In this document: in pieces, positions 1-40,262 of the stretch | Numbering within the stretch: position 1 is the first letter of the stretch | Layout: every line of letters begins with the position of its first letter | Source of the DNA: Pirellulales bacterium | GTDB lineage: Bacteria; Planctomycetota; Planctomycetia; Pirellulales; Thermoguttaceae | Direction: 5' to 3' | Assembly: GCA_016931995.1 (NCBI GenBank) | Contig: JAFGDS010000109.1 | Coordinates: forward strand, 1 to 43,548 | DNA: 43,548 bases | Translations under genes and position numbers: made by a program | Notes under the pieces: generated by a model | What the model was told of the DNA's origin: nothing | Database searches by the model: none | Seen by the model: only the letters and a program-made list of their open reading frames with translations

Positions 1-373
1 CCGGCGACAAAACAATCAAGCAAGTCGAAGGCTTCGGCAGAAATCTTCGTCGTAGTTTTTTCTTGAACAGGCACCATCGCGTTGTTTCCAGTGTTGGCAA
101 ATGACGACAAGTCACGTAATAGTCATCGTCTCTGCCGCCTTCATGGCCCCATGTTACTCATCATAGGCGGAGAGAATTGGCACCGCCAACGCCGATTGGG
201 TAACATCTTCATTATACAGACGTGGCGGTAATCGTCTAGCCCCCACTAGAAGGGGTGCGCCATGACCCGAAAAATCCCCGATTCAAACTGACCCACTACC
301 TGTCGGGCCGGCCCCCTTGGCTCCCGGCGGTCGTTTTAGTACGATACCCAGGATCGGGCGTCACGCGCCCTTC
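1..373. other. Left-edge non-coding sequence
   Basis: No convincing gene is seen. The first 250 bases are less GC-rich than the rest of the window. A small hairpin with CCCC and GGGG arms lies near 241-257. The stretch ends just before the tRNA-Arg gene, so it may hold that gene's promoter, but no clear -35/-10 pair is visible. Confidence 0.5.
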
Positions 374-447
<74 letters not shown>

Positions 448-814
448 CTTGAGGCGGTGGGGTGAGTCGGGTCAGTGCGTCCGCGTGCCGTTTCTCTCTG
501 CGCCCGAAACTCGCCGAGACACCGCCCCTCCGTCCGCCAGCGGGTTCCTATCGCCAGTCCCGATCCCGCGGGCGGCGGGTCCTGGCGGTTTTCTGGGCGG
601 TCTGCTTCGGCCGTCCCAACAAAAGCGCGTGTAGCAACAGGGCCCGCCGTCCGCGGGATCGAGCCGAGCATCGGTAGCCTCAACCGATGCTGTATCCCTG
701 CCCCAGACGAGCGGAATCCCGTTGCGATGAGCGGTTAAGTACCCCATTCCAAGTATAGGATTCTTGGGAGTGGGACGTCGCGTTCCTCTCCGGCTTGCCT
801 TCTTCGCTTGCCGT
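448..814. other. Non-coding stretch with a tRNA-like hairpin
   Basis: No gene is supported here. At 667-691 there is a perfect 9-bp stem (AGCATCGGT/ACCGATGCT) with a 7-nt loop. Its left arm, with the preceding G, repeats ten bases of the tRNA-Arg (GAGCATCGGT). A weaker hairpin, CCAAG/CTTGG, lies near 749-767. It could end leftward transcription or be the remains of a duplicated tRNA; neither can be settled from sequence alone. Confidence 0.4.
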
Positions 815-1312
815 TTATGCGCCGCGGGCGGGGATGGCACTCACGGACCAGGCGAGACTGACGACCCAACCGATCAGGCACCAACCGAGGAAGAGGTTGA
901 TCACCAGGATCGGACCCTTGTTCGGGTGATTCCGCGCGGCCGCCACGATCGTGGGCAGCAAGTAGATCGCGACCAGCGTCCCCCAGAAAGCCAGCCCAAG
1001 GAGGAACGACCCATTTTCTCTGACAATTAGGAGGACGAAGCCAATTGTCGCGACTGCGATGAACGTCAGCACGAAGATCATCCCGGCAGGAGAACGCAAT
1101 GCGCGGCCCCATTTGGACGCAGCCGAACGACGCTCGCGCGCCAAGCGGACGTTCACTCCACACGCCGGACACGTCGGCTCCTGGATGTCCACCGCGCGGC
1201 CGCAGGCCGGGCAAGGACGACTCGTCTGATAATGCCGTCCGCACTGTGGGCATTCAGAATCCACGGCGGTGCGTTGGACGACTGGGATGCGGCAGTGCGG
1301 GCAAAGCGGCAT
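815..1312 (-). CDS. Zinc-ribbon membrane protein with superinfection-immunity-type C-terminus
   Basis: A 165-residue protein. Residues 1-60 hold two CxxC pairs in each of two zinc-ribbon-like units (CPHC/CPQC, then CPAC/CPAC). Hydrophobic segments follow at about 78-98 and 103-125. The last segment contains IYLLPTIVAAARNHPNK, then a second part ending LFLGWCLIGWVVSLAWS. The pattern YxLPxxxAxxRxHxN...NLxLGWxxxGWVxxLxW matches the superinfection immunity family (T4 Imm-like, Pfam Imm_superinfect). Phage members of that family block entry of DNA from related phages, but many bacterial members are untested. It shares its N-terminus with the next leftward gene upstream (1333-2010). It may be host or prophage-edge cargo. 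Confidence 0.75.
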   Translation of the reverse strand: MPLCPHCRIPVVQRTAVDSECPQCGRHYQTSRPCPACGRAVDIQEPTCPACGVNVRLARERRSAASKWGRALRSPAGMIFVLTFIAVATIGFVLLIVRENGSFLLGLAFWGTLVAIYLLPTIVAAARNHPNKGPILVINLFLGWCLIGWVVSLAWSVSAIPARGA

Positions 1313-1332
1313 GGTGAATTCGGTTCAAGTGG

Positions 1333-2010
1333 TTAGTGCCGGCGTCCTTCGGCGTCGATTCCTCTGGCGGGCATTTCTTCGACAATGTCCTTGAGACGTC
1401 CTGTCCTCAGTCGTTCGGCGGCGTCGCGGAGACCGTGACAAATCTCCACCACGTCGAGTTGTTCGCCGTTCTCCAATTTTGCCGTGACCAGATAGACATT
1501 CATTTGGCCCATTGCCACTAGCCGGTCGGCTTTCTCGCGATCGTCCTTCGCCGGCAACCGTTGGCCAAGATCGTCCAGGAGGGCGAGCCGATCGACATCC
1601 GGCGAGGCGATGTTCCAAAAGACCGCCACCCGCTGATGTGCCTCGGACAAGGGCCCCGCGAGGGTCCTGTCGCCGGTTCGTCCCGCCCGCTCGGCGAGAT
1701 CTGCGGCCGCCTCAAACTGCCCGGCGATCTGGGTATAGGCCGGATCAGGAAAGGAGATCGATCCCGAGCCGATCGGCCGATCCGATTCGGACACGAAGTG
1801 GCCCCTAAAAAACAGGCAGGCCACGAGTGCAATTGGCGATGCGCACGCGAAAAGAAGGAGCAGGTAGCCGGGGCCAAACCGGAACCGAACGCGCGGCGGC
1901 GGAGCAACCTCCGCCAAAGGAACGTGGTATTGCCAATGACATTGGGGGCACTCCGCGTCGGTGGCGGTTTGCCAGACGACAGCGACGCGACAGCGTGGAC
2001 AGAGGGGCAT
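1333..2010 (-). CDS. Zinc-ribbon, single-span membrane protein
   Basis: The chosen start gives 225 residues and begins MPLCPRCRVAVVWQT, nearly the same as the start of the neighbour at 815-1312 (MPLCPHCRIPVVQRT). It has GGAG a few bases upstream, so the longer reading frame to 2148 is not preferred. CPRC and CPQC form a zinc ribbon at residues 4-24. One membrane span lies at about 45-67. The remaining 150 residues are soluble, probably helical, and not recognised. Gene order suggests transcription with the neighbour, which starts 21 bases beyond this gene's stop. The shared N-terminus with unrelated C-termini points to domain shuffling between duplicates. Confidence 0.75.
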   Translation of the reverse strand: MPLCPRCRVAVVWQTATDAECPQCHWQYHVPLAEVAPPPRVRFRFGPGYLLLLFACASPIALVACLFFRGHFVSESDRPIGSGSISFPDPAYTQIAGQFEAAADLAERAGRTGDRTLAGPLSEAHQRVAVFWNIASPDVDRLALLDDLGQRLPAKDDREKADRLVAMGQMNVYLVTAKLENGEQLDVVEICHGLRDAAERLRTGRLKDIVEEMPARGIDAEGRRH

Positions 2011-2546
2011 GAAGGTCTCCGATTGTCTCTCCTCCTGATTCTGAACGCCCTTCACTCTCGGATCCATAACCCGGTTTCGGGGGCGCAATAACGCGCTCGC
2101 GGCGCGGTGGGGTGACGAGTGCTTGTCACCACGACGGGAAGTCGCCAAAAAAAATCTGCGACTGGCCTTGACGGCCGGCGCGGATTCGTTCTAATCGCCG
2201 ATGCTACACGTGGCCCCGCGCGGGGCCGAGAGCTTTTGTTTCTTTCACGCGGCGGTTTTTAACAATCGGGCGAGCCCGCGCTCCTTCGTCAGGCCGGCGG
2301 CCAGTTATTGGGTCCGCGGCCGAACGCGGTTCGGCGATTCTCGCCCATTCGCGGCCCTTTCCCGATTGTGGGTAGGCCGCGGACCCGACAACTGGCTTCG
2401 CTGCGCGTGGGCGCGCGCAGGCCGATCCCGCAGGTCCCTTGCCCCAACTGCGCTCGGTCTGCGCGCCCCGCCAGCGCGCACGGAGGAGCGGGCGGCAACG
2501 GACGGATCGACTGGCGCGGCGCGAGCCCCAGCCAAGAGGAGCCCTA
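2011..2546. other. Divergent spacer before the integrase
   Basis: This stretch lies between the leftward zinc-ribbon genes and the rightward integrase and should hold both promoters and perhaps one prophage end. Two structures are visible. One is the perfect palindrome GGCCCCGCGCGGGGCC at 2212-2227, followed by a T-rich run. The other is a 21-bp imperfect inverted repeat at 2301-2321 and 2375-2395. A longer in-frame extension of the integrase begins at 2439 but lacks a good ribosome site. No att core was found. Confidence 0.5.
2301..2395. repeat. Imperfect 21-bp inverted repeat upstream of integrase
   Basis: The left arm at 2301-2321 (starts CCAGTTATTGGG) and the right arm at 2375-2395 (ends GACAACTGG) match at 19 of 21 positions when one is reverse-complemented, with a 53-base centre. 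It could fold as a long hairpin in RNA or serve as paired protein-binding sites. Its place 150 bases before the integrase start makes integrase arm sites or integrase-gene control plausible, but this is inference. Confidence 0.6.
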
Positions 2547-3707
2547 ATGGCGATCCGGAAGCTCGACACCTTTGACGTTGCTTCGCGCGGTCCGGCGGCC
2601 GCGCCGGAACCGCGGACGGCGCTGCGGTTGTTTGTGCCCGACCGAGTGGACGGCAGCTTGCCGCCGCTTGCGGCTTCGCAGGGCCGGCTCTCGCCGGCGA
2701 TGAGCCTGTCGGAATTCTTCGACGGGTACGTGTGGCCCGTCCTCATGCGGCCGCGGGACACGTCGGCCCGCACGCTGGCCGAATACCGACGGAGCCTCGG
2801 CTACTGGGTCGAATTCACGGGCGATCCGCCCCTGGGGGCGGTGAGCCAGGCCTTGTGCGTCGAGCTCCTGGCCGGCCTGCAGAAATGCCCGGGCCGGCCG
2901 AGCCGCGGCAACGAGACCTTGGCACGCAACACGATCCGGAAGCATTGCACGCAGTTGCAGTATCTCTTGGACCTGGCCGGGCCGCGGTCGCGGGCCAACC
3001 GGATGGCCGCGACGAAGAAGGGCCTTTTTGGCCTGGACGAGGACGGGCTGCCCAACGAGCCGCCCTATCTGGTCCGGTCGCCGGCCGAGCGGAACGAGGT
3101 GGACGAGGTCTTCGAGGTCGAGGAAATCCACGCCTGGCTCGAGGCGTGCGAGCGGGCCCGCGTGCCGCGGGACCTGGGCGTCGCGCCGGCGGCGTGGTGG
3201 AGGGCCTTGATCCGCTATCTCTACAACACCGGCGTGCGGCTCGGCACGGCGATGGCCATCCGGTGGACGTGGCACGAGCGGGACGAACGCGGCCGGCTGT
3301 GGCTGAAGGTGCCCAAGACCGAGATCAAGGGCCACGCGCAGAAGAGCTTCTACGTGAACGCCGAGGCGGCCGACGCGATCGAGTCGATCCGCACCGCGCG
3401 GGAGATCGTGTTCGCCTGGCCGCACCATCCGCGGTGGCTGCAAGCCGTGCGGGTGAGATTGCAGGCCGCAGCCGGCCTGCCGCCGCATCGCCGGTTCGGA
3501 TTCCACGCCCTGCGCCGCGCGATGTGTACGGAGGCGGCCGAGATGAACGCTCTGGTCGCCCAGAAGCAGGCCGGCCACACGGCCATCGCGATGACCCGCG
3601 ACAAATATGTGAACAAGCGGGTCGTGGCCGCGACAATGGAGCGGCTGCCCCAGCCGAAACGGCGGCGGACCAAGGACGACGATCCGGATCAAAAGAAGCT
3701 GTTTTAG
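2547..3707 (+). CDS. int: Tyrosine recombinase (phage integrase)
   Basis: The 386-residue protein would cut and rejoin DNA between phage and host attachment sites. The catalytic set is visible: R231 in TGVRLGTA, a lysine in KTEIKGH, H320 and R323 in HALRR, H344 in QAGH and the nucleophile Y354 in DKYV. The N-terminal half holds a SAM-like DNA-binding region (about 50-150). The start at 2547 is preferred because AGAGGAG lies 7 bases before it. Residues 36-45 (SLPPLAAS region) are encoded by a copy of a 30-bp repeat also found before two tail genes. It reads toward the rest of the prophage. Confidence 0.92.
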   Translation: MAIRKLDTFDVASRGPAAAPEPRTALRLFVPDRVDGSLPPLAASQGRLSPAMSLSEFFDGYVWPVLMRPRDTSARTLAEYRRSLGYWVEFTGDPPLGAVSQALCVELLAGLQKCPGRPSRGNETLARNTIRKHCTQLQYLLDLAGPRSRANRMAATKKGLFGLDEDGLPNEPPYLVRSPAERNEVDEVFEVEEIHAWLEACERARVPRDLGVAPAAWWRALIRYLYNTGVRLGTAMAIRWTWHERDERGRLWLKVPKTEIKGHAQKSFYVNAEAADAIESIRTAREIVFAWPHHPRWLQAVRVRLQAAAGLPPHRRFGFHALRRAMCTEAAEMNALVAQKQAGHTAIAMTRDKYVNKRVVAATMERLPQPKRRRTKDDDPDQKKLF

Positions 3708-3800
3708 TGGCCAGTGGTTAGTGGCCAGTAGGCGGTAGGCGGAAACCCGAATCCCGAATCCCGAGCCCCGAACCCCTAGCCCCAGTCCCGATTCACGGAG
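3706..3800 (+). repeat. Low-complexity spacer after integrase
   Basis: This spacer begins with three tandem variants of GTGGCCAGT/GTGGTTAGT (about 3708-3730). It continues into a C-rich tract made of CCCGAATCCC, CCCGAGCCCC and CCCAGTCCC units (3745-3791). It overlaps the integrase stop. The same units recur in most spacers of the window. A GGAGGA ribosome site follows directly for the next gene. Confidence 0.75.
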
Positions 3801-3809
3801 GAACGACCG

Positions 3810-4241
3810 ATGGCCAACTTCTCGGCCGAGACCGCGACGAACGGACGTAGGCGGGTGTTCGCAGACGGGGGCGTGCTCGTGGCCCGGTCCGACCTCGTGG
3901 ATCACCGGCCGGCCCCGTTCGATTGGGGGCCGGCCGCGTCGCGGGATTCCTTGCACCGGCTCGCGCTGGCCATCCTCGCCCGCGAACTGGGCGAGGATTC
4001 GCTGGCCGTTCTCCACTACCGGGACTTCGCCGCGGACGTGCTCGCGCCGGCGGATTGCGGCGCCTGGTTCCTGTCCGGTTGCGCGGTCCGCCAGTGGCTC
4101 GACGCCAGGGTCGAGGGCTACCGCGATCGAAAGTGCGTGGCAGTGACGCCCGTCGGCGGCCTGGCTCCGCCGCCGCGCGGCGTCACCTTGGACCAAAACC
4201 ACCCCAACCAGAAGGGAGGTGACCGCGTGAAAGCACTCTGA
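3810..4241 (+). CDS. DUF6166-like phage protein
   Basis: A 143-residue soluble protein. Residues 38-98 (from DWGPAASRDSLHRLALAIL through a short acidic helix and a DF...W.LS...V..WL ending) resemble the DUF6166 pattern found in phage and plasmid proteins of unknown function; the assignment is from memory of that pattern. The start has a strong GGAGGA site 9 bases upstream. The last residues read through GGGAGGTGA and a GTG codon, which looks like a leftover ribosome site. A hairpin (CGTCGAT-CGCG with its complement, 4244-4282) follows the stop. No biochemical role is known. Confidence 0.6.
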   Translation: MANFSAETATNGRRRVFADGGVLVARSDLVDHRPAPFDWGPAASRDSLHRLALAILARELGEDSLAVLHYRDFAADVLAPADCGAWFLSGCAVRQWLDARVEGYRDRKCVAVTPVGGLAPPPRGVTLDQNHPNQKGGDRVKAL

Positions 4242-4243
4242 GA

Positions 4244-4327
4244 CGTCGATCGCGTAACCGCGGGCCGGATCGCGGATCGACGCTCAACTCAATTGTTGGG
4301 TTGCAAGACACCGGGCACGACGCCCGG
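4244..4327. other. Two hairpins ahead of the initiator tRNA
   Basis: The first hairpin pairs 4244-4254 with 4271-4282. The second has stem CCGGGC/GCCCGG at 4311-4316 and 4322-4327 with a 5-base loop, 24 bases before the tRNA. They may separate the upstream mRNA from the tRNA transcript or aid processing. There is no T-run, so intrinsic termination is not evident. Confidence 0.45.
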
Positions 4328-4351
4328 CTCACCGATTGCCACGAAGGCACT

Positions 4352-4423
4352 CGCGGGGTGGAGCAGTGGTAGCTCGCCGGGCTCATAACCCGGAGGTCGC
4401 GGGTCCGAATCCCGCCCCCGCAA
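4352..4423 (+). tRNA. Initiator tRNA-fMet (anticodon CAT)
   Basis: The acceptor strand CGCGGGG pairs with CCCCGCA and leaves the C1 x A72 mismatch that marks bacterial initiator tRNAs. The anticodon stem CCGGG/CCCGG has three consecutive G-C pairs next to the loop CTCATAA, the second initiator hallmark. The D arm is GAGC-AGTGGTA-GCTC. The T loop reads TCCGAAT rather than the usual TTCGAAT, an unusual base at position 55. Discriminator A4423 is followed by CTGA, so CCA is not encoded. It lies between two rightward phage genes, 33 bases before the RimI-like gene. Confidence 0.93.
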
Positions 4424-4455
4424 CTGAAAAGATCGCTGAAGGGAGGAACCACGAA

Positions 4456-5013
4456 ATGCACGAAAGGGCGGCGGGGCCGATCGCTTGGATGAAGCCGTTT
4501 GATTCACTAGGCGCGGAAATCCGGGACATGTTGCGGCGGGACATGCCAAGGGTCCTCGATATCGAGCGAGCGGGCTTCGCGCATCCGTGGGACGAGGCTG
4601 AGTTCCATCGCGCGTGCAAGTTGACGAAGGTGCGGGCCATGACGGCGGCGCTGTACGAGCCCGATCCAGACGACACGGGCCTGTGCGCCGTCGAGACGGT
4701 GATCGGCTTTATGGTCTTCGAGCTGGGCACGCGCGCGGTCGAGCTCATGAACCTGGCCGTCGCGCCGGAGTTTCGCCGACGCAGCGTCGGTCGCAAAATG
4801 ATCGACTATCTTTCGAGCTATCTGTCCGAGAAGCGGCCGCGGATCGTCGCCAACGTGTGGGAGCGGAACGTCGACGCGCAACTGTGGTTCCGCGCGCTGG
4901 GGTTCAGGGCGGTCCGCATCCTGCCCGGCGAGTACGAGGATGGCAGCGAGGCGTGGCAATTCGCCCGCCGCTGGCGCCCGGCCGAGGCGGCGGCACTAGC
5001 CACTGGCCACTGA
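4456..5013 (+). CDS. GNAT acetyltransferase, RimI-like
   Basis: A 185-residue GNAT-fold enzyme, expected to move acetyl from acetyl-CoA to a protein N-terminus. The RimI-like opening (VLDIERAGFAHPWDEAEF) is at about 33-50. The core reads VELMNLAVAPEFRRRSVGRKM, where R/Q-x-x-G-x-G/K binds the CoA pyrophosphate. It ends with RNVDAQLWFRALGFRAVRI and a Y-E-DG-E-A motif, as in RimI (N-acetylation of ribosomal protein S18). GGGAGG lies 9 bases before the chosen ATG; the longer frame would run through the tRNA. The last residues (ATGH) come from a spacer repeat. The real substrate is unknown. Confidence 0.82.
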   Translation: MHERAAGPIAWMKPFDSLGAEIRDMLRRDMPRVLDIERAGFAHPWDEAEFHRACKLTKVRAMTAALYEPDPDDTGLCAVETVIGFMVFELGTRAVELMNLAVAPEFRRRSVGRKMIDYLSSYLSEKRPRIVANVWERNVDAQLWFRALGFRAVRILPGEYEDGSEAWQFARRWRPAEAAALATGH

Positions 5014-5022
5014 CCACTAACC
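4992..5022 (+). repeat. CCACTGGCCACTGACCACTAACC repeat module
   Basis: Tandem variants of CCACT/GGCCACT cross the stop codon of the acetyltransferase gene. They are the reverse complement of the GTGGCCAGT units that follow the integrase at 3708-3730. The module is part of the set of stereotyped spacer sequences. Confidence 0.65.
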
Positions 5023-5146
5023 AAACACGGAGCGCGGGCCGAGGGATCGCCCCCGCGGCCACGGAAGGGCGGGCAAGCGGAAACGGCCGGCCGACGCGAG
5101 GGATCGCTCGGCCGGCGTGAACAACGAGATCGACAAGGAGGACGTC

Positions 5147-5404
5147 ATGGTGGGCACGGTGTTCGTGGATTCGACCTACGCGCGGCCGCAGATCGCGATG
5201 CCGCCGCGGCGCGTGCAGTGCGGCGAAACGGTCGTCGAGGTGAGTCTCGGCTTCCGGTTGTCGCGCTGCCCGGGCTGGATCGCGCGGGGGCTTCTGCGGC
5301 TTCTGTTTCGGTGGGTCGCCCTGGAACCGATGCTCGAGATACACCTGCTCGAACCACGCCGCCAGCCGCCGCCGTTCGACCCGTACTTCCGATCGGCGAA
5401 TTAA
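5147..5404 (+). CDS. Small hypothetical protein (85 aa)
   Basis: The ATG at 5147 is chosen because AAGGAGG lies 5 bases before it; an in-frame GTG at 5117 is weaker. The protein has two halves: an N-terminal part with strands (TVFVDSTY, ETVVEVSLGF) and a hydrophobic amphipathic stretch WIARGLLRLLFRWVALE at about 46-62 that could touch a membrane or pack in a small fold. It is proline- and arginine-rich at the end. It belongs to the early rightward gene run. No family is recognised. Confidence 0.6.
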   Translation: MVGTVFVDSTYARPQIAMPPRRVQCGETVVEVSLGFRLSRCPGWIARGLLRLLFRWVALEPMLEIHLLEPRRQPPPFDPYFRSAN

Positions 5405-5440
5405 CGCGGGGGAAGGGGGATTGGGGATTAGGGATTGGAG
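5405..5440 (+). repeat. G-rich spacer (reverse of the C-rich module)
   Basis: GGGGGAAGGGGGATTGGGG followed by ATTAGGGATTGG is the opposite-strand form of the C-rich spacer unit. It passes directly into the GGAGG ribosome site of the next gene. On the + strand the runs of four to five G could form a quadruplex. Confidence 0.6.
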
Positions 5441-5446
5441 GACGCC

Positions 5447-5743
5447 ATGGAAGAAAACGATCCGTTGCGGGCTTTGCGCCGGCATAGGGCGATCGGCCCC
5501 GCCACGAAGCTCGCGTTCGAGTGGTTGTGGCGCGCCGCCGGCGAGAAGCCGGGTCGCGTGGAGGTCTCGCTTTTGCAATGGGGATTGGAGCTCGGCCGAT
5601 CGGAGCGGTCGGTCCGGGGCTGGATTCGCGACCTGGTGGCATGGGACCTGATCCAGGTCACGGGCCGCGGCGACGACGACGAGTGGCACGTCGACGTCTA
5701 CCATCCCGCGCCGCCGAGCGATCGTCGCAAACCCGCCTCTTAG
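5447..5743 (+). CDS. Winged-helix replication/regulatory protein, short paralogue
   Basis: A 98-residue protein with a winged-helix pattern: helices at about 14-28 (AIGPATKLAFEWLWRAAG) and 36-66 (recognition helix RSERSVRGWIRDLVAWDLI), then a wing (QVTGRGDDDEWHVDVYHP). It aligns from AFEWLW through VDVYHPAPP with the N-terminus of the next gene (AFEWLW...VYVYHPNPA), so the two are tandem paralogues. GGAGG lies upstream of the ATG at 5447. It probably binds DNA near the origin candidate inside the neighbour or controls the replication operon. Confidence 0.7.
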   Translation: MEENDPLRALRRHRAIGPATKLAFEWLWRAAGEKPGRVEVSLLQWGLELGRSERSVRGWIRDLVAWDLIQVTGRGDDDEWHVDVYHPAPPSDRRKPAS

Positions 5744-5762
5744 GCTTCCCAAGGAAGGGACC

Positions 5763-6911
5763 ATGGAAGACTACGACCCCACCTTCTTCGATTCGCTCGC
5801 GCCGCTGCACGCGGACAACCGCATCGGCGCGAGCGTGGCCCGCGCGTTCGAGTGGCTCTGGCACCAGACGCGGGGCAAGCCCGGGTACATCCTCTTCACG
5901 ACGAGGGACCTGGCCTACTTCTTCCGCCGCGCCCAGAGCCGCGCGGACGAGTGGATCGACAAGCTCGTCGAGGCGGGACTCATCGAGATCATCGAGCGGA
6001 CGCCGCGGGGCGTGCTGCACGTTTACGTGTACCACCCGAACCCGGCGGCCGAGCGACGCCGCGATCCGCCCGATCCGCAGCGACGTCTGGCGTTCGCCGA
6101 CCAGACCCAGGAGTGGGACGAGCCGGCCCGCGCCATTCCGTTTTCGGCGCCGAAAACGGAAAGTGGGAGTCCGTCCATTCCGGTTTCTTCTCCGAAAACG
6201 GAAAGCGACGGGGGGAAAGCACCCGAGGGCGGGGCGGCGGTCGGCGAGTCCTTTCCGGTTTCTTCTCCGAAAACGGAAAGCGACGGGGGGAAAGCACCCG
6301 AGGGCGGGGCGGCGGCGGGCCGAGACGATCCCGCGGCACACCTGTCTTCCGCGTGCGCGGGCGCGCCCGCGCGATTACCAATTACCAATACCAAGAAATC
6401 AATCTTACCAACTTCCCAATCGTTACCAACCCAACCGTTACCAAGCGGGCACGAGGTCGGGGATCGGGAGTCGGGGATTGGGGATCGGGGGTCGGGGCTT
6501 CTGCCGCCGCGCGTCGCGCGGGCCGAATCCCGAGTCCCGAGCCCCGACTCCGCCGCGCCGATCGGCGCGATCCTGCCGGCGGCGATCGGCCAGGCGATCG
6601 ACGCGGCCACGGACGAGCGGGGCGCGGCTGCCAGGCTCGAGGCCCGGATCCTGCGGGCCGTGCCCGAATTGGCCAAGCGGGAGTGCGTCGACGGGAAGTG
6701 GCTCGACGGCCTGCACGCCGCCAGGGATGCCGTGCGGCTGGTCTTGGACGCGGGCGTGAGCGAGCGGGACTTGGGCGCGATCTTCAACGACGTCCGCGCC
6801 CTGCGGGCCGCGGGCAACCTGGCCAACCCCGGCGGGTTCTTTCGCTACAAGGTCGACGAGCTGGCCCGGCGCCACGGGATTGATCTGCGCGCCCCACCCC
6901 GCGGCACGTGA
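5763..6911 (+). CDS. Phage replication initiator-like protein with embedded origin
   Basis: A 382-residue protein. Residues 1-100 form a winged helix (AFEWLW, RADEWIDKLVEAGLIEII, wing to VYVYHPNPA). Residues 120-270 are low complexity with two identical SSPKTESDGGKAPEGGAA units. Residues 275-382 form a helical domain ending GGFFRYKVDELARRHGI, a pattern common in phage replication proteins with helicase-loader-binding ends. The layout parallels lambda O: DNA-binding N-terminus, a linker encoded by the origin, and a C-terminal partner-binding domain. GGAAGGG precedes the ATG. No DnaB helicase or loader gene was found in the window, so host helicase use is inferred. Confidence 0.75.
   Translation: MEDYDPTFFDSLAPLHADNRIGASVARAFEWLWHQTRGKPGYILFTTRDLAYFFRRAQSRADEWIDKLVEAGLIEIIERTPRGVLHVYVYHPNPAAERRRDPPDPQRRLAFADQTQEWDEPARAIPFSAPKTESGSPSIPVSSPKTESDGGKAPEGGAAVGESFPVSSPKTESDGGKAPEGGAAAGRDDPAAHLSSACAGAPARLPITNTKKSILPTSQSLPTQPLPSGHEVGDRESGIGDRGSGLLPPRVARAESRVPSPDSAAPIGAILPAAIGQAIDAATDERGAAARLEARILRAVPELAKRECVDGKWLDGLHAARDAVRLVLDAGVSERDLGAIFNDVRALRAAGNLANPGGFFRYKVDELARRHGIDLRAPPRGT
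6136..6500. other. Candidate phage replication origin inside the replication gene
   Basis: Three inverted-repeat iterons share the right arm CCGAAAACGGAA. They lie at 6136-6161 (a perfect 26-bp palindrome), 6178-6203 and 6253-6278. They are followed by an AT-rich stretch at about 6374-6444 with five copies of TTACCAA (6375, 6382, 6405, 6423, 6438). A G-rich run follows at 6451-6497. Iterons, then an AT-rich unwinding element, inside an initiator-like gene matches the lambda ori arrangement. Confidence 0.62.
6178..6315 (+). repeat. Exact 63-bp direct repeat, period 75 bp
   Basis: Bases 6178-6240 and 6253-6315 are identical. The 75-bp period is 25 codons, so the reading frame is kept and the protein gains a second SSPKTESDGGKAPEGGAA unit. 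Each copy contains one inverted-repeat iteron. Perfect identity suggests a recent duplication. Confidence 0.9.
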
Positions 6912-6956: not shown

Positions 6957-7733
6957 ATGAGTTTAGGACTGTCGAACATGTCGAAATCTGGCCCCGAGGA
7001 CATCGTCCGCGCCATCGCCGTTCTGGGCGCGGAGGCCAACGGGCCGAGGATCGTCAAACTGCCCGGCGACACTGAGTATGCGATCGTCCACGGCGACGAG
7101 TACGAAGTGCGGCCCATGCCTGCGCGGCCGCGGGAGGAGCGGGTATTCGATCTGGCGACGCTCGTGGCCCGCGCGGCCACGTTCGAGCGACCGGCGGCGA
7201 TCTGGTATTCGGCCGACCGCGTCGCGGTGTGCGACGGCCAGACCGGCGACCGCCTCTGCACGTGGCCCCTGCGATGCTCGTTAGCGTGGCAGCATCTGGC
7301 CGACTATGGCGGACCGCCGTCGTTCGGACACCAGAAGCTGCTTGCCTTACTCGTCGACGTGCTGGACGCCCCGGAGGACGTCGTGGATGCCTTCCGGCAA
7401 TTGCGATGGAACGTCTCGACCGAAACGGTTCAGGCGGTCTCGCCGACGAGCGAGTCGCGATCCGAGACCAAGGCGCTCCCGCCCGACGCGCCGCGGACGA
7501 TCCGCCTGCAAGTGCCGTTTTGGGACACGCCCGGTTTGCGCGAGACCTGGTCGATCGACGCTCGCGTCGAGTGCTTCCTGCGCGACGAGGAACCGAGGAT
7601 ATCGCTCGCGGCCGGGCACGACGCCCTGATTGAGATCGGCGAGCAGGCCATGGACTTGCTGCGCGACAAGATCGCCGCCGCGCTGGCCGAGGCGAATCTC
7701 GCCATTCCCCTTTACCACGGCTGCCACTGCTGA
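6957..7733 (+). CDS. Hypothetical phage protein (258 aa)
   Basis: The start at 6957 is chosen for the AAAGGA site just before it. The protein looks like a single soluble alpha/beta fold: IVKLPGDTEYAIVHGDEYEV near residues 33-52, a segment IWYSADRVAVCDGQTGDRL at 87-105, a helix around GHQKLLALLVDVLDAPEDVVDAFRQ, then an Ig-like strand-rich C-terminus (TIRLQVPFWD, VECFLRD). The general plan recalls DUF2303-type phage proteins linked with recombination or replication genes, but I do not claim membership. It lies between the replication gene and ParB in the early run. Confidence 0.6.
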   Translation: MSLGLSNMSKSGPEDIVRAIAVLGAEANGPRIVKLPGDTEYAIVHGDEYEVRPMPARPREERVFDLATLVARAATFERPAAIWYSADRVAVCDGQTGDRLCTWPLRCSLAWQHLADYGGPPSFGHQKLLALLVDVLDAPEDVVDAFRQLRWNVSTETVQAVSPTSESRSETKALPPDAPRTIRLQVPFWDTPGLRETWSIDARVECFLRDEEPRISLAAGHDALIEIGEQAMDLLRDKIAAALAEANLAIPLYHGCHC

Positions 7734-7744
7734 GCGAGGAAACC

Positions 7745-9397
7745 ATGAAAACCAAAACAATCGGGCGGAGCAAATCGAGGTCGGAGGTCGGAGGTCGGAA
7801 GTCGGCGCGGGGCCGCCCATCGACCTCCGCCCCGAGCCCAGAATCCCCAGCCCCCAGTTCCGAGCCCCCAGCCCACGTCGCCGGGAAGCCCGTCACCTTG
7901 CTCGCCCTGCTCGCGCCGATCGAGAGGATCGGACCGAGCCCCTACAATCCGCGGCGGGACTTCCCGGCCGAGGAGATCGAACAGCTCGCCGCGACGATCC
8001 GCGCGGTCGGCATCGTGCAGCCGATCGTCGTGCGGCGGATGGTAAGTGGCCGGTATGAAGTGGTCGCCGGCGAGCGGCGGCTCCGCGCGGCCAAGGCGGC
8101 CGGCCTCGATAAGGTGCCGGTGATTATCCGCGATCTGGACGACGACCAGGCCCGCGAGATGGCCATAATGGAGAACCTGGCCCGCAAGGACCTCAACGCG
8201 ATCGAGGAGGCCCAGGGCTTCGCGGCGCTCTTGAAGGGGCCCAGTGCGCCGACACAGACGGAGCTGGCCGCCCGGCTGGGCTGCTCGCAAGGGCACGTCG
8301 CCAACCGGCTGCGGCTCCTGCGGCTGCCCAAGGCGTGGCGGGACCGCATTCGCTCGGGCACGCTCCCGCCGAGCCACGCCCGGGCGATCGTGCCCTACTG
8401 CGAACACCCGACGCTCATGGCCGCGATCGGCCGGGAGCTCGACGCCGATTTGAAACGCAACGACGGCCGGTTGTCGGATGTCGAGACGTTCCAGGCAGGC
8501 ATCGAATACGCGATCAATATGAGCACGAAGCCGCTGGAAGGCCAGCGGTACGATTGCCGCCGCGGCGGGCACGTGCCCGTCTTCGCGCCGACGCCCGATG
8601 AGGAAGCGCAGCTCGGCGTGATCGAGATCGATCTGGACGGCCAGAAGGAGCGGCGGGCCACCAACACGAAGCTCTGGGAGAAGCTCCAAAACAAGCACGC
8701 GACCAAGTGGCTCAAGGAGAACGCCAAAGGCCGCAATGGTCGGGCCGCGAAGAAGGCGGCCGGGAAAAACGGCAAGCCCAAGCCGCCCTCGCCCGAGGAG
8801 GAGGCGGCCCGAGCCCGCGAGCAGGCGCGGCAATTCGCCCGGCGGCTCTGGGAGTTTTACGTGGATTGGCTGCGGTACCTATGCGCGCAGGTTCTGGCCG
8901 ACGCGACGCCGGCGGAGGACCTGATCCCCGTGCTCCTTTGGTTCGCGCAGGGGCACGTTCCGTTCGGGATGCACCGCAGCACGTCCGACGTGGCGGCGGT
9001 GCTCAAGACCCGCAAGCTGCCCGGCTCGGGCGGCGCGGCCATCCTGGCCATCCCGGCCAAGAAGGCGACCGAGATCGGCGGGGCGATCGCCGGGCGGTGG
9101 TTCCACGATCCGAAGGAGGGGCCGCGGCCGTTCGTGCCCGACCCGATCGTCCGCGCGGTGGCCGAGCGGCTGGGGATCGACCCGGAGGCCGAGTGGCGCC
9201 GCGAGCGGGCGGGGCCCTTGACGGAGCGGTACTTCAACCTGCACGGCAAGGAGCGGCTCTTGGCCCTGGCCGACGAGCTCGGGACCGACCTGGCCGACGC
9301 CGAGCGGGCCACGAAGGCGGCCTGCGTGGCGGCGATGATGAAGCGGACCGGCCTCGCGCTACCGAAGGAGCTCGCGCGGCCGCGGCGGCCCAAATGA
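7745..9397 (+). CDS. ParB/Spo0J-like CTPase DNA-binding protein
   Basis: A 550-residue protein, long for ParB. Residues 12-45 are low complexity, encoded by spacer modules. The ParB N-terminal domain covers about 57-150, with IGPSPYNPRRDFPAEE, VQPIVVRR and the CTP-binding box GERRLRAAKAAGL. It is followed by ENLARKDLNAIEEA and a helix-turn-helix (TELAARLGCSQGHVANRLRLLRL, 175-197). A zinc-like or structured middle and a lysine/alanine-rich hinge (about 325-355) lead to a 190-residue C-terminus not seen in chromosomal ParB. GAGGAA precedes the ATG. No ParA is nearby, so it may be a regulator or DNA organiser rather than half of a partition pair. Confidence 0.85.
   Translation: MKTKTIGRSKSRSEVGGRKSARGRPSTSAPSPESPAPSSEPPAHVAGKPVTLLALLAPIERIGPSPYNPRRDFPAEEIEQLAATIRAVGIVQPIVVRRMVSGRYEVVAGERRLRAAKAAGLDKVPVIIRDLDDDQAREMAIMENLARKDLNAIEEAQGFAALLKGPSAPTQTELAARLGCSQGHVANRLRLLRLPKAWRDRIRSGTLPPSHARAIVPYCEHPTLMAAIGRELDADLKRNDGRLSDVETFQAGIEYAINMSTKPLEGQRYDCRRGGHVPVFAPTPDEEAQLGVIEIDLDGQKERRATNTKLWEKLQNKHATKWLKENAKGRNGRAAKKAAGKNGKPKPPSPEEEAARAREQARQFARRLWEFYVDWLRYLCAQVLADATPAEDLIPVLLWFAQGHVPFGMHRSTSDVAAVLKTRKLPGSGGAAILAIPAKKATEIGGAIAGRWFHDPKEGPRPFVPDPIVRAVAERLGIDPEAEWRRERAGPLTERYFNLHGKERLLALADELGTDLADAERATKAACVAAMMKRTGLALPKELARPRRPK
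7773..7880 (+). repeat. Spacer modules captured inside the ParB gene
   Basis: GGTCGGAGGTCGGAAGTCGG-type sequence (from about 7781) is followed by a short inverted partner and a C-rich tract of CCCAGAATCCCC/CCCCCAGTTCCGAG units (to about 7875). The order equals that seen in true spacers, yet here it is read in frame as serine/proline-rich protein. Confidence 0.7.
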
Positions 9398-21318: not shown

Positions 21319-21436
21319 CGGGTCAAAATCCTACAGGGGGGGCCGCCCGGGACCGGGCTGGACCTCGCGCGTTTTTACCCGCGAAATTCGAGGGGGGGGT
21401 ATTGAGGGGGCGAGCAACGAGCGTTTGAGCGGGCGG

Positions 21437-21458
21437 CCCGGGAGGTGCAACTCCCGGG
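21437..21458 (+). other. Hairpin CCCGGGAG/CTCCCGGG
   Basis: An 8-bp perfect stem with loop GTGCAA between the HNH and methyltransferase genes. A G-rich stretch with runs of seven G (from about 21306 to 21403) lies upstream. It could slow or end read-through from the HNH gene. Confidence 0.5.
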
Positions 21459-21473
21459 CAGCCCTTCACACGA

Positions 21474-21491
21474 CGATCTGTGCACAGATCG
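21474..21491. promoter_or_regulatory. Perfect 18-bp palindrome upstream of the methyltransferase
   Basis: CGATCTGTGCACAGATCG is perfectly symmetric and holds two GATC sites. It lies 29 bases before the favoured GTG start at 21521 and 2 bases before an alternative ATG at 21494. An operator for control of the methyltransferase gene is a natural guess. Confidence 0.55.
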
Positions 21492-21520
21492 CCATGCGTT
21501 TCCGCGTGGAGGATCGAGCC

Positions 21521-22414
21521 GTGCGCAGAGCGAACCGGACTAAAAAGAATCGGGCGACCGCCGCCCGCAACTTGAGAACGAAAGCCGCGCCGCTCCGGGA
21601 GTCCGGGGCGCGGGCGTTGGAGCGCAAGTGGGGAACGAAGCCGGGCCAGCTATGGACGATCGCCAGCCGGCACGGCGGCGCGCACCGGCTGCTCTGCGGC
21701 GACGCGACGCGGGCCGAGGACGTGCTGCGCGCGATGGACGGCGCGCAGGCGGCCCTCGTGGCGACGGACCCGCCCTACGTCGTCGACTACACGGGCGACC
21801 GGCCGCGCCCCCGCGCGCGGAAGACCCGCGCGGGCAAGGACTGGACCGACCTGTTTCGCGAGCCGAAGGCGAAGGACGCGAGGGCCTTCTTCGCCGCCGT
21901 GTTCCAAAACGTCCTCGCCGTGCTGGCCGACCACGCGGCGATCTACGTCTGGCACGCGCACAAGCGGCATCCCATCCTGGCCGACGTCTGGCGCGAGCTG
22001 GGCATCCTCGAACACCAGCAGATCGTGTGGGTCAAGCCGGCGTCGGTGTTCGGACCGTCTTACTGGCACTGGCGGCACGAGTGCTGCCTGATGGGCTGGC
22101 GGCGGGGATCGCAACCGCCCTACGGTCCGCGCGAGCACAACTCCGTCTGGGAGGTGGATTACGAGGGGAAGAAGAGAATCGTCGGCAATCTGCATCCCAC
22201 GCAGAAACCGGTCGAGCTGTTCGCGCGTCCGATCCGCCGGCACACGCAGCCGGGCGACGTCTGCTTCGAGCCGTTTTGCGGGAGCGGCTCCCAGCTCGTC
22301 GCAGCCGAGCGGATCGGGCGACGGTGTTACGCGATCGAGCTCGAGCCGGCCTTCGTGGCCGTCGCCCTGGAGCGGATGGCCGACATGGGGCTTGAACCGA
22401 AGCGAGAACGCTGA
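21521..22414 (+). CDS. DNA adenine/cytosine-N4 methyltransferase (beta-type order)
   Basis: A 297-residue enzyme if started at the GTG with GGAGG nine bases upstream; in-frame ATG 21494 is the alternative. Motif IV, TDPPYVVDY, at about 83-91 precedes motif X/I, where FEPFCGSGSQLVAAE (about 248-262) binds S-adenosylmethionine. The order DPPY then FxPFxGSG is that of beta-class methylases. GQLWTIASRHGGAHRLLCGDA precedes the catalytic part and suits a ParB-linked methylase core. No restriction enzyme is adjacent, so it is an orphan, likely protecting phage DNA. Its stop overlaps the terminase start (TGATG). Confidence 0.9.
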   Translation: MRRANRTKKNRATAARNLRTKAAPLRESGARALERKWGTKPGQLWTIASRHGGAHRLLCGDATRAEDVLRAMDGAQAALVATDPPYVVDYTGDRPRPRARKTRAGKDWTDLFREPKAKDARAFFAAVFQNVLAVLADHAAIYVWHAHKRHPILADVWRELGILEHQQIVWVKPASVFGPSYWHWRHECCLMGWRRGSQPPYGPREHNSVWEVDYEGKKRIVGNLHPTQKPVELFARPIRRHTQPGDVCFEPFCGSGSQLVAAERIGRRCYAIELEPAFVAVALERMADMGLEPKRER

Positions 22415-22899
22415 TGGCCACGCGAGGGCGCAAACCCAATCCGAGCGCGCTTAACCGCCTGCGGGGAAACCCGGGCAAGCGCGCGACGAACAAGCGGGAG
22501 CCCAAGATCAAGGCGGAGATCCCGCCGTGCCCGCGGCACTTGGACGCGGAGGCCAAGAAGGAATGGCGCCGCGTGGCGGGGATCCTGCAGAAGCACGGCC
22601 TATTGACCCAGGTGGACCGAGCCGTGTTGGTGGCGTACTGCCGGGCCTGGAGCCTGTTCGTCGAGGCGGACCGGCACGTCCGCGAGCGCGGCATGACGAT
22701 GGTCTCGCCCAAAACGGGCGCGGTGTACCAGAGCCCCTACATGAATCAGCTCACTGCGGCCATGAAGGACCTGGTCCGTTTCGCCGCCGAGCTGGGGATG
22801 ACCCCGTCGAGCCGATCGCGGGTGAAGGTGGACGTGGACGGACCGGAGTCGGACCCGATGACCAGGCTGCTCTTTGAGCGTTATGGCAGCACGAATTAA
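22414..22899 (+). CDS. terS: Terminase small subunit, P27 family
   Basis: A 161-residue protein that would recognise phage DNA and start packaging. It opens with the family's basic tail (RGRKPNPSALNRLRGNPGKR). The family core then follows: PPCPRHLDAEAKKEWRRV, LLTQVDRAVLVAYCRAWS, and a helix with YQSPYMNQLTAAMKDLVRFAAELGM-type text ahead of TPSSRSRVKV. The start overlaps the methyltransferase stop and the end overlaps the large subunit start, so the packaging genes are translated as a coupled set. Confidence 0.92.
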   Translation: MATRGRKPNPSALNRLRGNPGKRATNKREPKIKAEIPPCPRHLDAEAKKEWRRVAGILQKHGLLTQVDRAVLVAYCRAWSLFVEADRHVRERGMTMVSPKTGAVYQSPYMNQLTAAMKDLVRFAAELGMTPSSRSRVKVDVDGPESDPMTRLLFERYGSTN

Positions 22900-24694
22900 G
22901 AAGACGCCGCAGCGCCGCAAGCCATGCAAGTTCACGATTCCCGATCGAGACCGCAACGACCCGCGGGTCGTGGAGTACATCGAGGGCGTCCTGTCGGGCC
23001 GCATCGTGACGGGGCGGCTTGCGCGGCTGGCGGTCGAGCGGCACGTCCGCGACCTGGCGGAGGGCGCGAAGCGGGGCCTGTGGTTCGACTACGAGGACGC
23101 CCAGTTTACCCTCGACTTCGTCGAGTGCCTCTGCCACTCGAAGGGCGAATGGGCGGGCCGGCCGATCCATTGCGAACCGTGGGAGGCGTTTCTGTATTGG
23201 GTCCCCTTTGGCTGGAAGAAGGCCGATGGCAACCGGCGATTCAACACCGTCATCCTCATCGTCGCGCGCAAGAACGGCAAGAGTCTCTTGGGGGCCGCGG
23301 CTGGGCATCGGCTAACGGTCGCCGACAACGAGCCCGGGGCCGAGGTCTACACCTTCGCGACGAAGAAGGACCAGGCCCGGATCGTGCACGAGGAGGCCCG
23401 GCGGATGGTCCGCCGGTCGCCGTCGCTGCGGCGTCGGGTCGCGATGCACAAGGACAACCTCTCGATCGAGGCGACCGACTCGAAGTACGCGCCGCTGGCC
23501 AGCGATTCGGATACTCTGGACGGCCTGAACGTGCATGGGGCGATCGGCGACGAGCTGCACGCCCACCCGGACCGCGGGCTGTGGGACGTGATCGAGACGG
23601 CCACCGGCGCGCGACGGCAACCGATGATGTGGGGGATCACGACCGCCGGCCGCGGCGACGATCCGAATTCCCTTTACCAGGAACTGGCGGGCTACAGTCG
23701 CAAGGTCCTCGAGGGCCTCGTGGAAGACGACAGTTGGTTCGCCCTGATCTACCAGATGGACGGGGCGACCTACGACGAGGCAGGTGCGGAGGTCCGGCCG
23801 GCCGACGACTGGACGGACGAGGCCAACTGGATCAAGGCCAATCCGAACCTGGGCGTCTCGGTCAAGATCGACGATCTGCGCCGCAAGGCCAAGAAGGCCA
23901 AAGAGACGCCCGCGGCGCTGGCCAACTTCCTGCAAAAGCACCTCAACGTCGAGGTGGCCGCGGCCGCGGCCTGGCTGCCGGCCGGCCTGTGGGATCGATG
24001 CCGCGGCGAGGATCCGTTGTATGGGCCCGAGGGTCTGCTCCCCGCGCAGATCGAACGGTGGAGGGGCCGGCCCTGCTTTGCCGGCGCGGACCTGTCGAGC
24101 GTCGACGATCTGACCGCGGTCGTGCTGGCGATCCCGATGGACGACGGGTGCATCGACGTGGTCCCGTTTTGCTGGTGTCCGAGGGAGAACGCGATCGGCC
24201 GGCAGCGGGACCGGCGCGTGCCTTATGTGACGTGGGCGGAGCGAGGCCTGTTGGAGCTGACCGAGGGCGACAGCGTGGACTACGACTGCCTCCGGGCCAG
24301 GCTCCGTCAGGTCCGCGACGAGTGGGGCCTGGACGTCCAGGAAATCGCGATGGACCCGCACAACGCGATCTACGTGGCGACGCGGCTGGCGGACGAGGAC
24401 GGCTTCACCGTGTTCGAGCATCGCCAGGGATTCCTCTCGATGAATGACCCGATCAAGCAAACCCAAAAACGCCTGTTGGACCGAAGGCTCCGCCACGGCG
24501 GGCACAAGGTCCTCGCCTGGTGCGTGTCGAACGTCGTCACGCGGACCGATCCGGCGGGCAACATCAAGTTCGATAAGGAGGCGGCCAGCGAGAAGATCGA
24601 CCTGGCCGTGGCGATGGTCATGGCCGTGGGCCGGGCCCTCGTGGTCCAGCCGAAGCGGTCCGTGTATTTGACGCGAGGAGTGATCGCGCTATGA
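22883..24694 (+). CDS. terL: Terminase large subunit (HK97-type)
   Basis: A 603-residue packaging motor. The ATPase part has a Walker-A-like loop in VARKNGKS (about 130-137) and a Walker-B region ending IGDELHAH (about 220). The coupling segment MWGITTAGRGDDPNS follows. The nuclease part starts with CFAGADLSSVDDLTAVV (about 397) and continues through the VQEIAMDPHNA region to EKIDLAVAMVMA near the end, where acidic residues hold metal. The ATG at 22883 overlaps the small subunit stop. It pumps DNA into the prohead through the portal encoded just downstream. Confidence 0.94.
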   Translation: MAARIKKTPQRRKPCKFTIPDRDRNDPRVVEYIEGVLSGRIVTGRLARLAVERHVRDLAEGAKRGLWFDYEDAQFTLDFVECLCHSKGEWAGRPIHCEPWEAFLYWVPFGWKKADGNRRFNTVILIVARKNGKSLLGAAAGHRLTVADNEPGAEVYTFATKKDQARIVHEEARRMVRRSPSLRRRVAMHKDNLSIEATDSKYAPLASDSDTLDGLNVHGAIGDELHAHPDRGLWDVIETATGARRQPMMWGITTAGRGDDPNSLYQELAGYSRKVLEGLVEDDSWFALIYQMDGATYDEAGAEVRPADDWTDEANWIKANPNLGVSVKIDDLRRKAKKAKETPAALANFLQKHLNVEVAAAAAWLPAGLWDRCRGEDPLYGPEGLLPAQIERWRGRPCFAGADLSSVDDLTAVVLAIPMDDGCIDVVPFCWCPRENAIGRQRDRRVPYVTWAERGLLELTEGDSVDYDCLRARLRQVRDEWGLDVQEIAMDPHNAIYVATRLADEDGFTVFEHRQGFLSMNDPIKQTQKRLLDRRLRHGGHKVLAWCVSNVVTRTDPAGNIKFDKEAASEKIDLAVAMVMAVGRALVVQPKRSVYLTRGVIAL

Positions 24695-24927
24695 ATGAGA
24701 ACCACGAAAAACACGAAACGCACGAAAGGGGCGCGGGGCGGGGGACGAGGGGCGAGTCAGGGCGGTTAGCCTGGTCGACCGCGGACAGCGTGTGCCTGGT
24801 GGCCATCGCCTCGACGGTCTGGGGCCTCTGGCTGATGTGGCCGCCGGCGGCCCTCGTCGGCGCCGGCACGTTCCTCTACTTGCTCTCGGTCGGCATGCAC
24901 AAACAGGCGGAGCACCATGATCCTTGA
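24691..24927 (+). CDS. Small two-span membrane protein (78 aa)
   Basis: The start overlaps the terminase stop (ATGA) and the end overlaps the portal start. The first 25 residues (NENHEKHETHERGAGRG) are encoded by a CACGAAA-type repeat that also surrounds the start of the RimI-like gene. The rest has two hydrophobic helices: STADSVCLVAIASTVWGLWLM and then a VGAGTFLYLLSVGM segment. Its role in an otherwise packaging/head operon is unknown; a small holin-like or membrane-anchor role is possible. Confidence 0.6.
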   Translation: MNENHEKHETHERGAGRGTRGESGRLAWSTADSVCLVAIASTVWGLWLMWPPAALVGAGTFLYLLSVGMHKQAEHHDP

Positions 24928-27335: not shown

Positions 27336-27473
27336 TCCACGGCCACCACGGGCGCTGGAGGCCATGTCGCAATTCGCCTTGGGGGTGGACGCGGCGTCAG
27401 TGCCCGGGCATACTACGCAATGTCCTGGCACGTCTCGTCTTCTTCCACTATCTCACATCGGCGGGTGGCATCC

Positions 27474-28493: not shown

Positions 28494-28804
28494 CAGCTTC
28501 GCTCGCCTCTCCTGGCGCCGGCATGGCCAATTCCTGCAGTGGACAGCCGGCCGCCCCGGCGCGTAGACTGGAGACTCATTGCGAAATACCCCCGCGCGGG
28601 CCCGGGCACGCCGTGACGTGCCGGACCTGAGGCGGTCTGGCGGTGAGCCGGCTGACGCCGTGATCGGCAGCGACTCGCCCGCGGTAGGACCCCACGGATC
28701 TATCGCCGGCCTGGCGCTCGCCGATCTTTCTTTTGCGCGCCGGCGCGGTGGGTTTGCGGGTCCCGAGTTCCGAGCCCCGAACCCCTAAACCCCCCAAAAC
28801 CGTC
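28494..28804. other. Spacer between TIR and capsid genes
   Basis: No gene is supported. A half copy of the 16-bp palindrome (GCGAAATA) lies at 28581-28588, followed by CCCCCGCGCGGG. A C-rich tract (28758-28800) leads to the capsid ATG. The junction probably marks the right end of the inserted TIR segment. Confidence 0.45.
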
Positions 28805-34293: not shown

Positions 34294-34398
34294 GAAATCG
34301 GAAATCGGAGGTCGGAAGTCGGAGAACTAATCGACTTCCGCATTCCGACCTCCGACCTTCGTCCCCCAATCCCTAGCCCCCAACCCCCAATCCCCGCC
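34294..34398. repeat. Inverted repeat plus C-rich spacer before the chaperone gene
   Basis: Arms at about 34296-34322 (ATCGGAGGTCGGAAGTCGG) and 34332-34358 (CGACTTCCGCATTCCGACC) can form a hairpin with loop AGAACTAAT. CCCCCAATCCCTAGCCCCC-type sequence reaches the ATG at 34399. Confidence 0.8.
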
Positions 34399-35231: not shown

Positions 35232-35276
35232 CCCCCGACTCCCGAGCCCCGAATCCCCAGTCCCGAGCCCCGAGTT
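35210..35276 (+). repeat. C-rich spacer before tape measure
   Basis: CCCCAGCCCCC, CCCCTAGCCCCC and CCCCGAATCCCCAGTCCCGAG units overlap the frameshift product's end and reach the tape measure ATG. Confidence 0.8.
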
Positions 35277-37927: not shown

Positions 37928-37969
37928 TCCCGAGCCCCGAGTCCCTAGCCCCGAACCCCGAATCCCGCC
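37928..37969 (+). repeat. C-rich spacer
   Basis: CCCGAGCCCCGAGTCCC, then CCCCGAACCCCGAATCCC units fill the gap completely between stop and ATG. Confidence 0.8.
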
Positions 37970-39459: not shown

Positions 39460-39653
39460 CGGCGCGCCGGCGTCGATCATCGTCTCGCCGCCGGTTGCCC
39501 CAACGGTCATGGCGCTGGGGTGTTTACCCCAGGCGCAAGGCGGTCGGCGGTTGCGATCGGTCCATCGTCGATTGACGCGCGTCGCCACCGCGGCTAATCT
39601 GGTGGTGACAAGGCCGGTGCCTTGCCAACCTAGGGGGCACTGGTCTTCATTTG

Positions 39654-40243: not shown

Positions 40244-40262
40244 GCGGCTTCCCCAGGCGACC

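Follow-up and report, generated by a model that had tools for sequence, protein, structure and literature searches.

A candidate lambda-like replication origin inside the initiator gene of a Pirellulales prophage

The origin of phage lambda lies in the middle of the O gene, where 19-bp inverted-repeat iterons and an AT-rich tract are found, and according to the cited excerpts the O protein also binds single-stranded AT-rich DNA (PMC7466680; PMC3985674). For the RepA_N initiator Rep of pSK41, the relevant sections of PMC5703833 describe an N-terminal winged helix that binds boxes located centrally in rep, a linker encoded by the origin and a helical C-domain; the same sections report that the hybrid initiator pPR9 carries a helix-turn-helix (HTH) of pfam13730. 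In SPP1, oriL is placed within the initiator gene 38 (gp38) and consists of repeats and an AT-rich unwinding element, and the phage supplies a loader (gp39) and a helicase (gp40) of its own (excerpts of PMC6316719). At oriV of RK2, the Rep protein TrfA binds one strand of the repeats of the unwinding element, all four of which are required, and RK2-type Rep proteins have two winged-helix domains, as stated in the extract of PMC4081077. Among the matches listed by our literature search, no title deals with the replication origin of a planctomycete phage; one of the papers listed, PMC10945688, is on a planctomycete from the deep sea and makes mention of bacteriophages.

Here, we analysed a window of 43,548 bases (i.e., the whole stretch of DNA considered), which is one whole contig of a 5.43 Mb genome (G000) and whose host bacterium very probably belongs to the order Pirellulales (Planctomycetota). 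Family matches identify a tailed-phage prophage on the contig, with integrase, terminase, portal and capsid genes, which is presumably still active. Most likely, this dormant virus starts its DNA copying inside its own initiator gene, as lambda does, using an initiator that standard family libraries barely recognise. That is, we assign a probability of about 0.8 to the reading that 5763-6911 encodes the prophage's replication initiator and that the linker-coding DNA within it (about 6136-6444) would be bound by this protein and serve as the phage replication origin. The genes of the prophage that are of relevance here are the following.

2439..3707, plus strand: tyrosine integrase, upstream of the replication module
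5435..5743, plus strand: 102-aa winged-helix paralogue of the initiator's N-domain (34% identity over residues 10-101)
5763..6911, plus strand: probable replication initiator gene, 382 aa, with winged helix, linker and helical C-domain (from ORF, AlphaFold2 and PHROG)
6960..7733, plus strand: protein without family, after the initiator gene
7745..9397, plus strand: ParB-like protein, 550 aa, a neighbour kept near three initiator homologues
22414-22899: terminase small subunit
22874-24694: terminase large subunit
24917-26623: portal
28733-30205: major capsid

Between integrase and replication module, a tRNA-Met gene is located at 4352-4424. A search for att candidates, i.e., exact 18-mer repeats between 1-6000 and 34000-43548, returned none. 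An N6/N4 DNA methylase (21425-22414; 2.9e-21) is encoded directly before the terminase genes, and the head-gene cluster includes a TIR-domain protein (27420-28493; Pfam TIR_2, 1.6e-17). The third-position GC of the latter gene is 0.66 and thereby below that of its neighbours; it is likely a cargo gene and perhaps has a role in defence. Among the ORFs scanned, a subset of those in the window, none could be recognised as a helicase or loader gene. For the ORF at 6960-7733, neither Pfam nor PHROG gives a match at E<=1; its relative in the G121 locus (L052) is 25.6% identical.

Within and around the linker-coding part of the initiator gene, we distinguish the following features.

5778..6050, plus strand: winged-helix DNA-binding domain, residues 6-96 (AlphaFold2 model and structure comparison)
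6136..6161: candidate iteron 1, perfect 26-bp palindrome TTCCGTTTTCGGCGCCGAAAACGGAA
6178..6203: candidate iteron 2, imperfect inverted repeat TTCCGGTTTCTTCTCCGAAAACGGAA
6253..6278: candidate iteron 3, identical to iteron 2 and within the tandem duplication
6173..6320: 73-nt tandem duplication that doubled iteron 2 (6173-6245 and 6248-6320, 96% identical)
6375..6444, plus strand: AT-rich block and probable DNA unwinding element; each of its six TACCAA is on the plus strand
6561..6872, plus strand: helical C-terminal domain, residues 267-370, conserved in several homologues

The AlphaFold2 model of the initiator shows a confidently predicted winged helix (residues about 6-96, with a block of pLDDT 87-96 over residues 11-90), a disordered stretch that is almost wholly below pLDDT 50 (residues 108-264), and a helical C-terminal domain of moderate confidence (residues 267-370, mean pLDDT 72.9). 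All iterons and the AT block are encoded within the disordered stretch, the iterons at codons about 125-172, i.e., about 370-515 nt inside the gene. Third-position GC falls from 0.93 for the N-domain to 0.68 for the linker and is back at 0.94 for the C-domain. A dip of this kind in the linker is observed in 6/6 genes examined (window included), which were chosen from 10 palindrome-tested loci and for which the linker borders were drawn by eye. Selection on the linker DNA for a property other than its codons is expected to leave such a drop.

A sequence-only reading of this stretch had claimed three inverted repeats with a common arm, one of them a perfect 26-bp palindrome, followed by an AT-rich block with five TTACCAA, all in one open frame. 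We find each of these elements in place: the inverted repeats are those listed above, they share the arm CCGAAAACGGAA, and ORF 5763-6911 spans the whole element. Iteron 1 is the longest perfect palindrome in the window (arms of at least 10, gap of at most 4). We compared it with synonymous-codon shuffles of the gene, which preserve the protein and the gene's own codons; its 13-nt arm was reached in 0/300 of them, and a mismatch-tolerant score gave again 0/300. Since iterons 2 and 3 lie within the 73-nt tandem duplication, they are not independent copies. When up to 3 mismatches are allowed, the iteron pattern occurs at only three sites in the whole 5.43 Mb genome, all of them here (reversed control: 0).

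The AT-rich block starts about 100 bp after iteron 3. It holds TACCAA at positions 6376, 6383, 6389, 6406, 6424 and 6439, five of the six being TTACCAA, and the plus strand of the rest of the window contains a single further copy (13909). None of 2000 synonymous shuffles matched the six copies of the gene. Their spacing is irregular rather than tandem, unlike that of a slippage array. A duplex stability scan, which had been suggested as a check, agrees with the proposed role at short range: given nearest-neighbour energies, no 50 bp of the window are less stable than 6375-6424, while in longer scans the block is not the least stable stretch, coming 2nd at 75 bp and 6th at 100 bp. The GC-skew (per kb) that had been suggested along with it does not clearly change direction here. 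Two base pairs ahead of the block, an 18-bp palindrome made of G and C only is found (GCGCGGGCGCGCCCGCGC, 6355-6372).

Two further parts of the earlier proposal stand only to some extent. The G-rich run at 6459-6500 lies in the open frame as claimed, but it cannot be kept as part of the origin: at <=3 mismatches it has 21 matches in the genome (reversed control: 4), which correspond to 14 separate places, window included, after overlapping ones are joined. As a repeat dispersed over the genome, it has to be dropped from the element. By eye, similar G-rich heptamer-like repeats (GGGGATC/GGGAGTC/GGGGATT) as those found in frame at 6459-6500 are also visible at 5411-5440 and 6523-6551. Two open frames next to the G004 homologue (L033, 11-841 and 1951-2319) include short simple repeats in frame as well, with EGYEGYEGGEGY in the integrase and KGVKGVKGMKGVKG in the next frame; they look as if another dispersed repeat had been inserted into genes.

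The second part concerns the two winged-helix proteins that had been proposed to act at the iterons. For the N-domain of the initiator, the AlphaFold2 model gives a winged helix. The upstream 102-aa protein is a partial paralogue (2.8e-4 to phrog_270); a tblastn search with it on the 10.9 kb contig of the nearest relative (G003) matched solely the initiator itself, and it is therefore probably not essential to the origin system. It could compete for the iterons and thereby limit initiation, or act as a regulator.

To place the protein among known initiators, we used 11 members of its family. At E<=0.1, phrog_270 (replication initiation) is matched by 5/11 members with a best value of 1.1e-8; the window protein alone reaches just 0.039, such that the family match rests on the homologues. 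Further matches are found for phrog_428 (replication initiation, 3/11) and phrog_186 (DnaD-like loader, 2/11, best 8e-7), and weak ones for the O-like families phrog_345 (2/11, best 0.054) and phrog_391 (1/11, best 0.006). With regard to Pfam, PF13730 is matched by 4/11 members (best 9.5e-4). At E<=0.5, none of the 11 members matches RepA_N or lambda O's family (Phage_rep_O).

Structure comparisons are less specific. Searching PDB sequences at E<=1 gave 4 matches, none of which is an initiator. Among solved structures, the N-domain resembles many winged helices, with 5trd as the best row (Z 10.6), LexA at 9.6, and CRP and MarR entries too. Residues 1-96 align with the initiator entries 4pql, 4pt7, 4pta and 5kbj, which are listed as initiator, Rep or DNA-binding protein and are presumably RepA of staphylococcal multiresistance plasmids, at Z 8.3-9.5 and rmsd 2.9-3.4 over 86-91 residues; the match to 4pql (Z 9.5, rmsd 3.0, 87 aligned) is thereby level with those to unrelated winged helices. 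Among the matches listed for predicted viral protein structures, helix-turn-helix proteins of phages are numerous, and several replication initiators as well as two O-type proteins occur too; a single match is at E<=0.001 and the others are weaker. For the C-domain, the highest matches are to designed helical proteins, with Z not above 6.9, and are uninformative; no DnaD or RepA C-domain entry is among the matches listed.

Homologues of the initiator are rare and divergent across Planctomycetota. At E<=0.001 and with the own genome included, matches are found in 7/99 near genomes, 14/396 of the order, 8/119 of the family, 4/397 of the class and 3/392 of the phylum. Two of the 7 near-genome matches were left out, as they cover the linker region only. 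Before the palindrome tests, we dropped the matches in G026 (L004) and G067 (L007) as well as the second one in G003 (L012, contig C81), since their alignments are confined to the linker or its borders and resemble low-complexity matches. Searches of INPHARED and PLSDB (tblastn) revealed no relatives, nor did IMG/VR scans with the window protein, the A1 profile and the G003 protein. The closest homologue, from G003 (L013), is 37-38% identical over the alignment. Its element is related to that of the window and has the same neighbours, i.e., integrase, initiator, acetyltransferase and a 550-aa ParB-like protein, with the acetyltransferase on the opposite side of the initiator.

For each homologous gene, we compared the best inverted repeat with those of 300 synonymous shuffles. 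Among the first 10 loci, 6 show values of <=1/300 (window, G003, G004, G064, G074 and G109), G121 is weak (7/300), and no signal is seen for G063 (81/300), G020 (105/300) and G340b (175/300). Nine further loci add two strong cases (G717 with 0 and G938 with 1) and two weak ones from the same genus (G392, 7/300; G292, 6/300). The other five show no signal: for G141 (184/300), only the C-terminal 117 aa entered the test due to a late start chosen, the frames of G340 L018 (140/300) and G298 (240/300) are cut by contig ends, that of G063b (252/300) has 115 aa, and that of G749 (165/300) is broken. Altogether, 8/19 loci (7/18 excluding the window) are at <=1/300, 3 are weak and 8 are without signal. 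As a control, 0/16 other genes of the window are at <=1/300, the lowest value being 12/300.

The palindromes of the 8 significant loci differ in sequence. The G003 gene has two of type GTGCCGGGTTTTC-gap-GAAAACCCGGCAC, which occur at two places only in the G003 genome, both in the initiator gene; G004 has one (CTCGGAGGTTTCGGCGACGAAACCTCCGAG), and those of G074, G064 and G109 are of yet other sequence. Those of all 8 loci lie at codons 104-218, i.e., past the winged helix. In the window, the model places the palindromes within a linker; for the other loci, the alignment suggests the same. The 60-bp stretch of highest AT content in the gene follows the palindrome at 7/8 significant loci (AT from 0.45 in G717 to 0.70 in G003); the exception is G109, where this stretch precedes the palindrome and lies in the N-domain. 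Judged by these comparisons, the putative origin element recurs as DNA, not as fixed sequence, in divergent relatives. We discarded one further observation: the two palindromes of G074 (L053) are in different codon phases, but another frame yields a similar peptide for the second copy, such that a frameshift between them is likely and the phases do not count as frame-independent evidence.

The TACCAA array is more narrowly distributed. Seven copies are found in the G003 gene, six of them inside its most AT-rich 100 bp (0/2000 shuffles), and two in the G004 gene (5/2000). The shuffles of G003 average 1.79 copies, i.e., the amino acids of this protein favour the motif. The codon phases are mixed (1 and 2 for both the window and G004, 0 and 2 for G003), such that the motif is no peptide repeat and is kept as DNA in these genes. 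Clusters of three TACCAA in the genomes G000 and G003 are restricted to the coding strand of the initiator genes. The motif is absent from the genes of 7/10 loci of the first set and of all 9 further loci (16 loci lacking it). Using triple clusters as an origin finder was dropped: 78/396 genomes of the order have one somewhere, and 30 such loci (about 3 kb or less each) revealed no convincing member of the initiator family (best E 0.3). The motif alone is thus no origin marker and is informative only within this branch.

Given these observations, three alternative explanations have to be weighed. The palindromes might be a parS-like centromere for the downstream ParB-like protein (7745-9397) instead of initiator iterons. 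parS sites are palindromes, and tblastn finds relatives of this protein near the initiator homologues in L032, L052 and L054; beside the G141 homologue, a ParB-like frame that tblastn did not report is visible by eye, too. No ParB match, however, is found near the strong-palindrome homologues L033, L049 and L053, where the pieces have 5.7-13.1 kb and a divergent ParB can escape the search. Furthermore, the sites lie within the initiator gene with an AT-rich block of unwinding type behind them, and no ParA was recognised among the window ORFs scanned, a subset of all ORFs. We thus consider a centromere unlikely.

A very unlikely explanation is that of an intragenic operator, by which the gene is merely autorepressed, either by the winged-helix protein or by the 102-aa paralogue, and replication begins elsewhere. 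The resemblance of the winged-helix domain to many regulators (LexA, CRP and MarR entries) fits this idea, and a regulator of this type could be encoded at 5435-5743 by the paralogue. Yet the sites are about 370-515 nt into the gene and thus away from the promoter, and neither the directional repeats of the AT block nor the C-domain nor the family matches to replication initiation would be explained. Finally, it is hardly credible that the repeats are drift in a disordered linker without DNA function (slippage, or dispersed simple repeats of the lineage): the G-rich repeat in the same linker is dispersed, the iteron array is partly a tandem duplication and tandem TACCAAC repeats do occur in other genomes of the order, but iterons and TACCAA clusters are unique to the gene in its genome, the TACCAA spacing is irregular, and palindromes of differing sequence recur at a similar place in distant homologues.

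We therefore favour the intragenic phage origin. At the level of sequence, it builds on the anatomy, the uniqueness of the repeats in the genome, the linker palindromes of the relatives and the homologues' matches to phage initiator families. Points against it are the weak phrog_270 match of the window protein alone, the loci without a significant palindrome, the narrow distribution of TACCAA, the GC-skew, the stability ranks at 75 and 100 bp, the lack of a recognised helicase or loader gene among the ORFs scanned, the C-domain without an assigned fold and the distance of about 100 bp from iteron 3 to the AT block. Concerning its function, we infer iteron binding, unwinding, single-strand recognition and helicase recruitment: the winged-helix N-domain would bind the palindromic iterons as dimers and wrap the DNA, the strain of wrapping would open the downstream AT-rich block, the initiator would hold one opened strand via the repeated same-strand TACCAA, and the C-domain would recruit the host helicase or primase. 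More tentatively, and at less than even odds, the homologues may constitute a barely recognised initiator family of temperate phages of Planctomycetota, in which each lineage has its palindromic iteron in its own linker and one branch carries a TACCAA array that is read single-stranded. The family is also of interest as a natural experiment, with initiator and proposed binding site evolving jointly in a single reading frame and with the DNA function visible as lost codon bias in the linker.

Among the known systems close to this locus, lambda O/ori has the same layout, with inverted-repeat iterons ahead of an AT-rich tract in the initiator gene. The lambda-like interpretation that had been read from the sequence is supported: the anatomy (N-domain, linker with iterons, AT block and C-domain in one frame) is real, palindromes recur in relatives, and several homologues match phage initiator families. 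The systems differ in that the inverted repeats of the window have 26 bp vs. the 19 bp given for lambda's iterons in the excerpts cited above, in that the gene after the initiator (6960-7733) is not recognisable as P, and in that the family lacks the Pfam match of lambda O at E<=0.5 and shows only weak matches to O-like PHROGs in single members.

With RepA_N initiators, the locus shares candidate binding boxes (the iterons) in the linker-coding centre of the gene and a helical C-domain. In contrast to them, the family has no RepA_N Pfam match, its structural match is level with that to ordinary winged helices, and its C-domain model has no clear match to DnaD; the DnaD-like loader family phrog_186 is matched by 2/11 members. 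The HTH family pfam13730 of pPR9, as named in the sections cited, is also the one matched by 4/11 members here. Since the protein has a Pfam match to neither lambda O nor RepA_N, it would work like them without being filed under them. For SPP1 oriL, the likeness is an origin within the initiator gene with repeats and an AT-rich element; according to the excerpts drawn on, the repeats there are direct vs. the palindromes of the window, and genes of gp39/gp40 type were not recognised among the window ORFs scanned.

RK2 TrfA/oriV provides the model for the TACCAA array. It differs in its four 13-mers, in an origin that lies outside trfA, and in the two winged-helix domains of its Rep protein. If the more tentative reading of the family is true, the array would be what the unwinding repeats of RK2 are, but in a phage and within an intragenic origin of lambda type. 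The kind of origin proposed here is thus already known, and the putative initiator, by its sequence matches, is a further member of the kind, without a Pfam match to the lambda O or RepA_N families.
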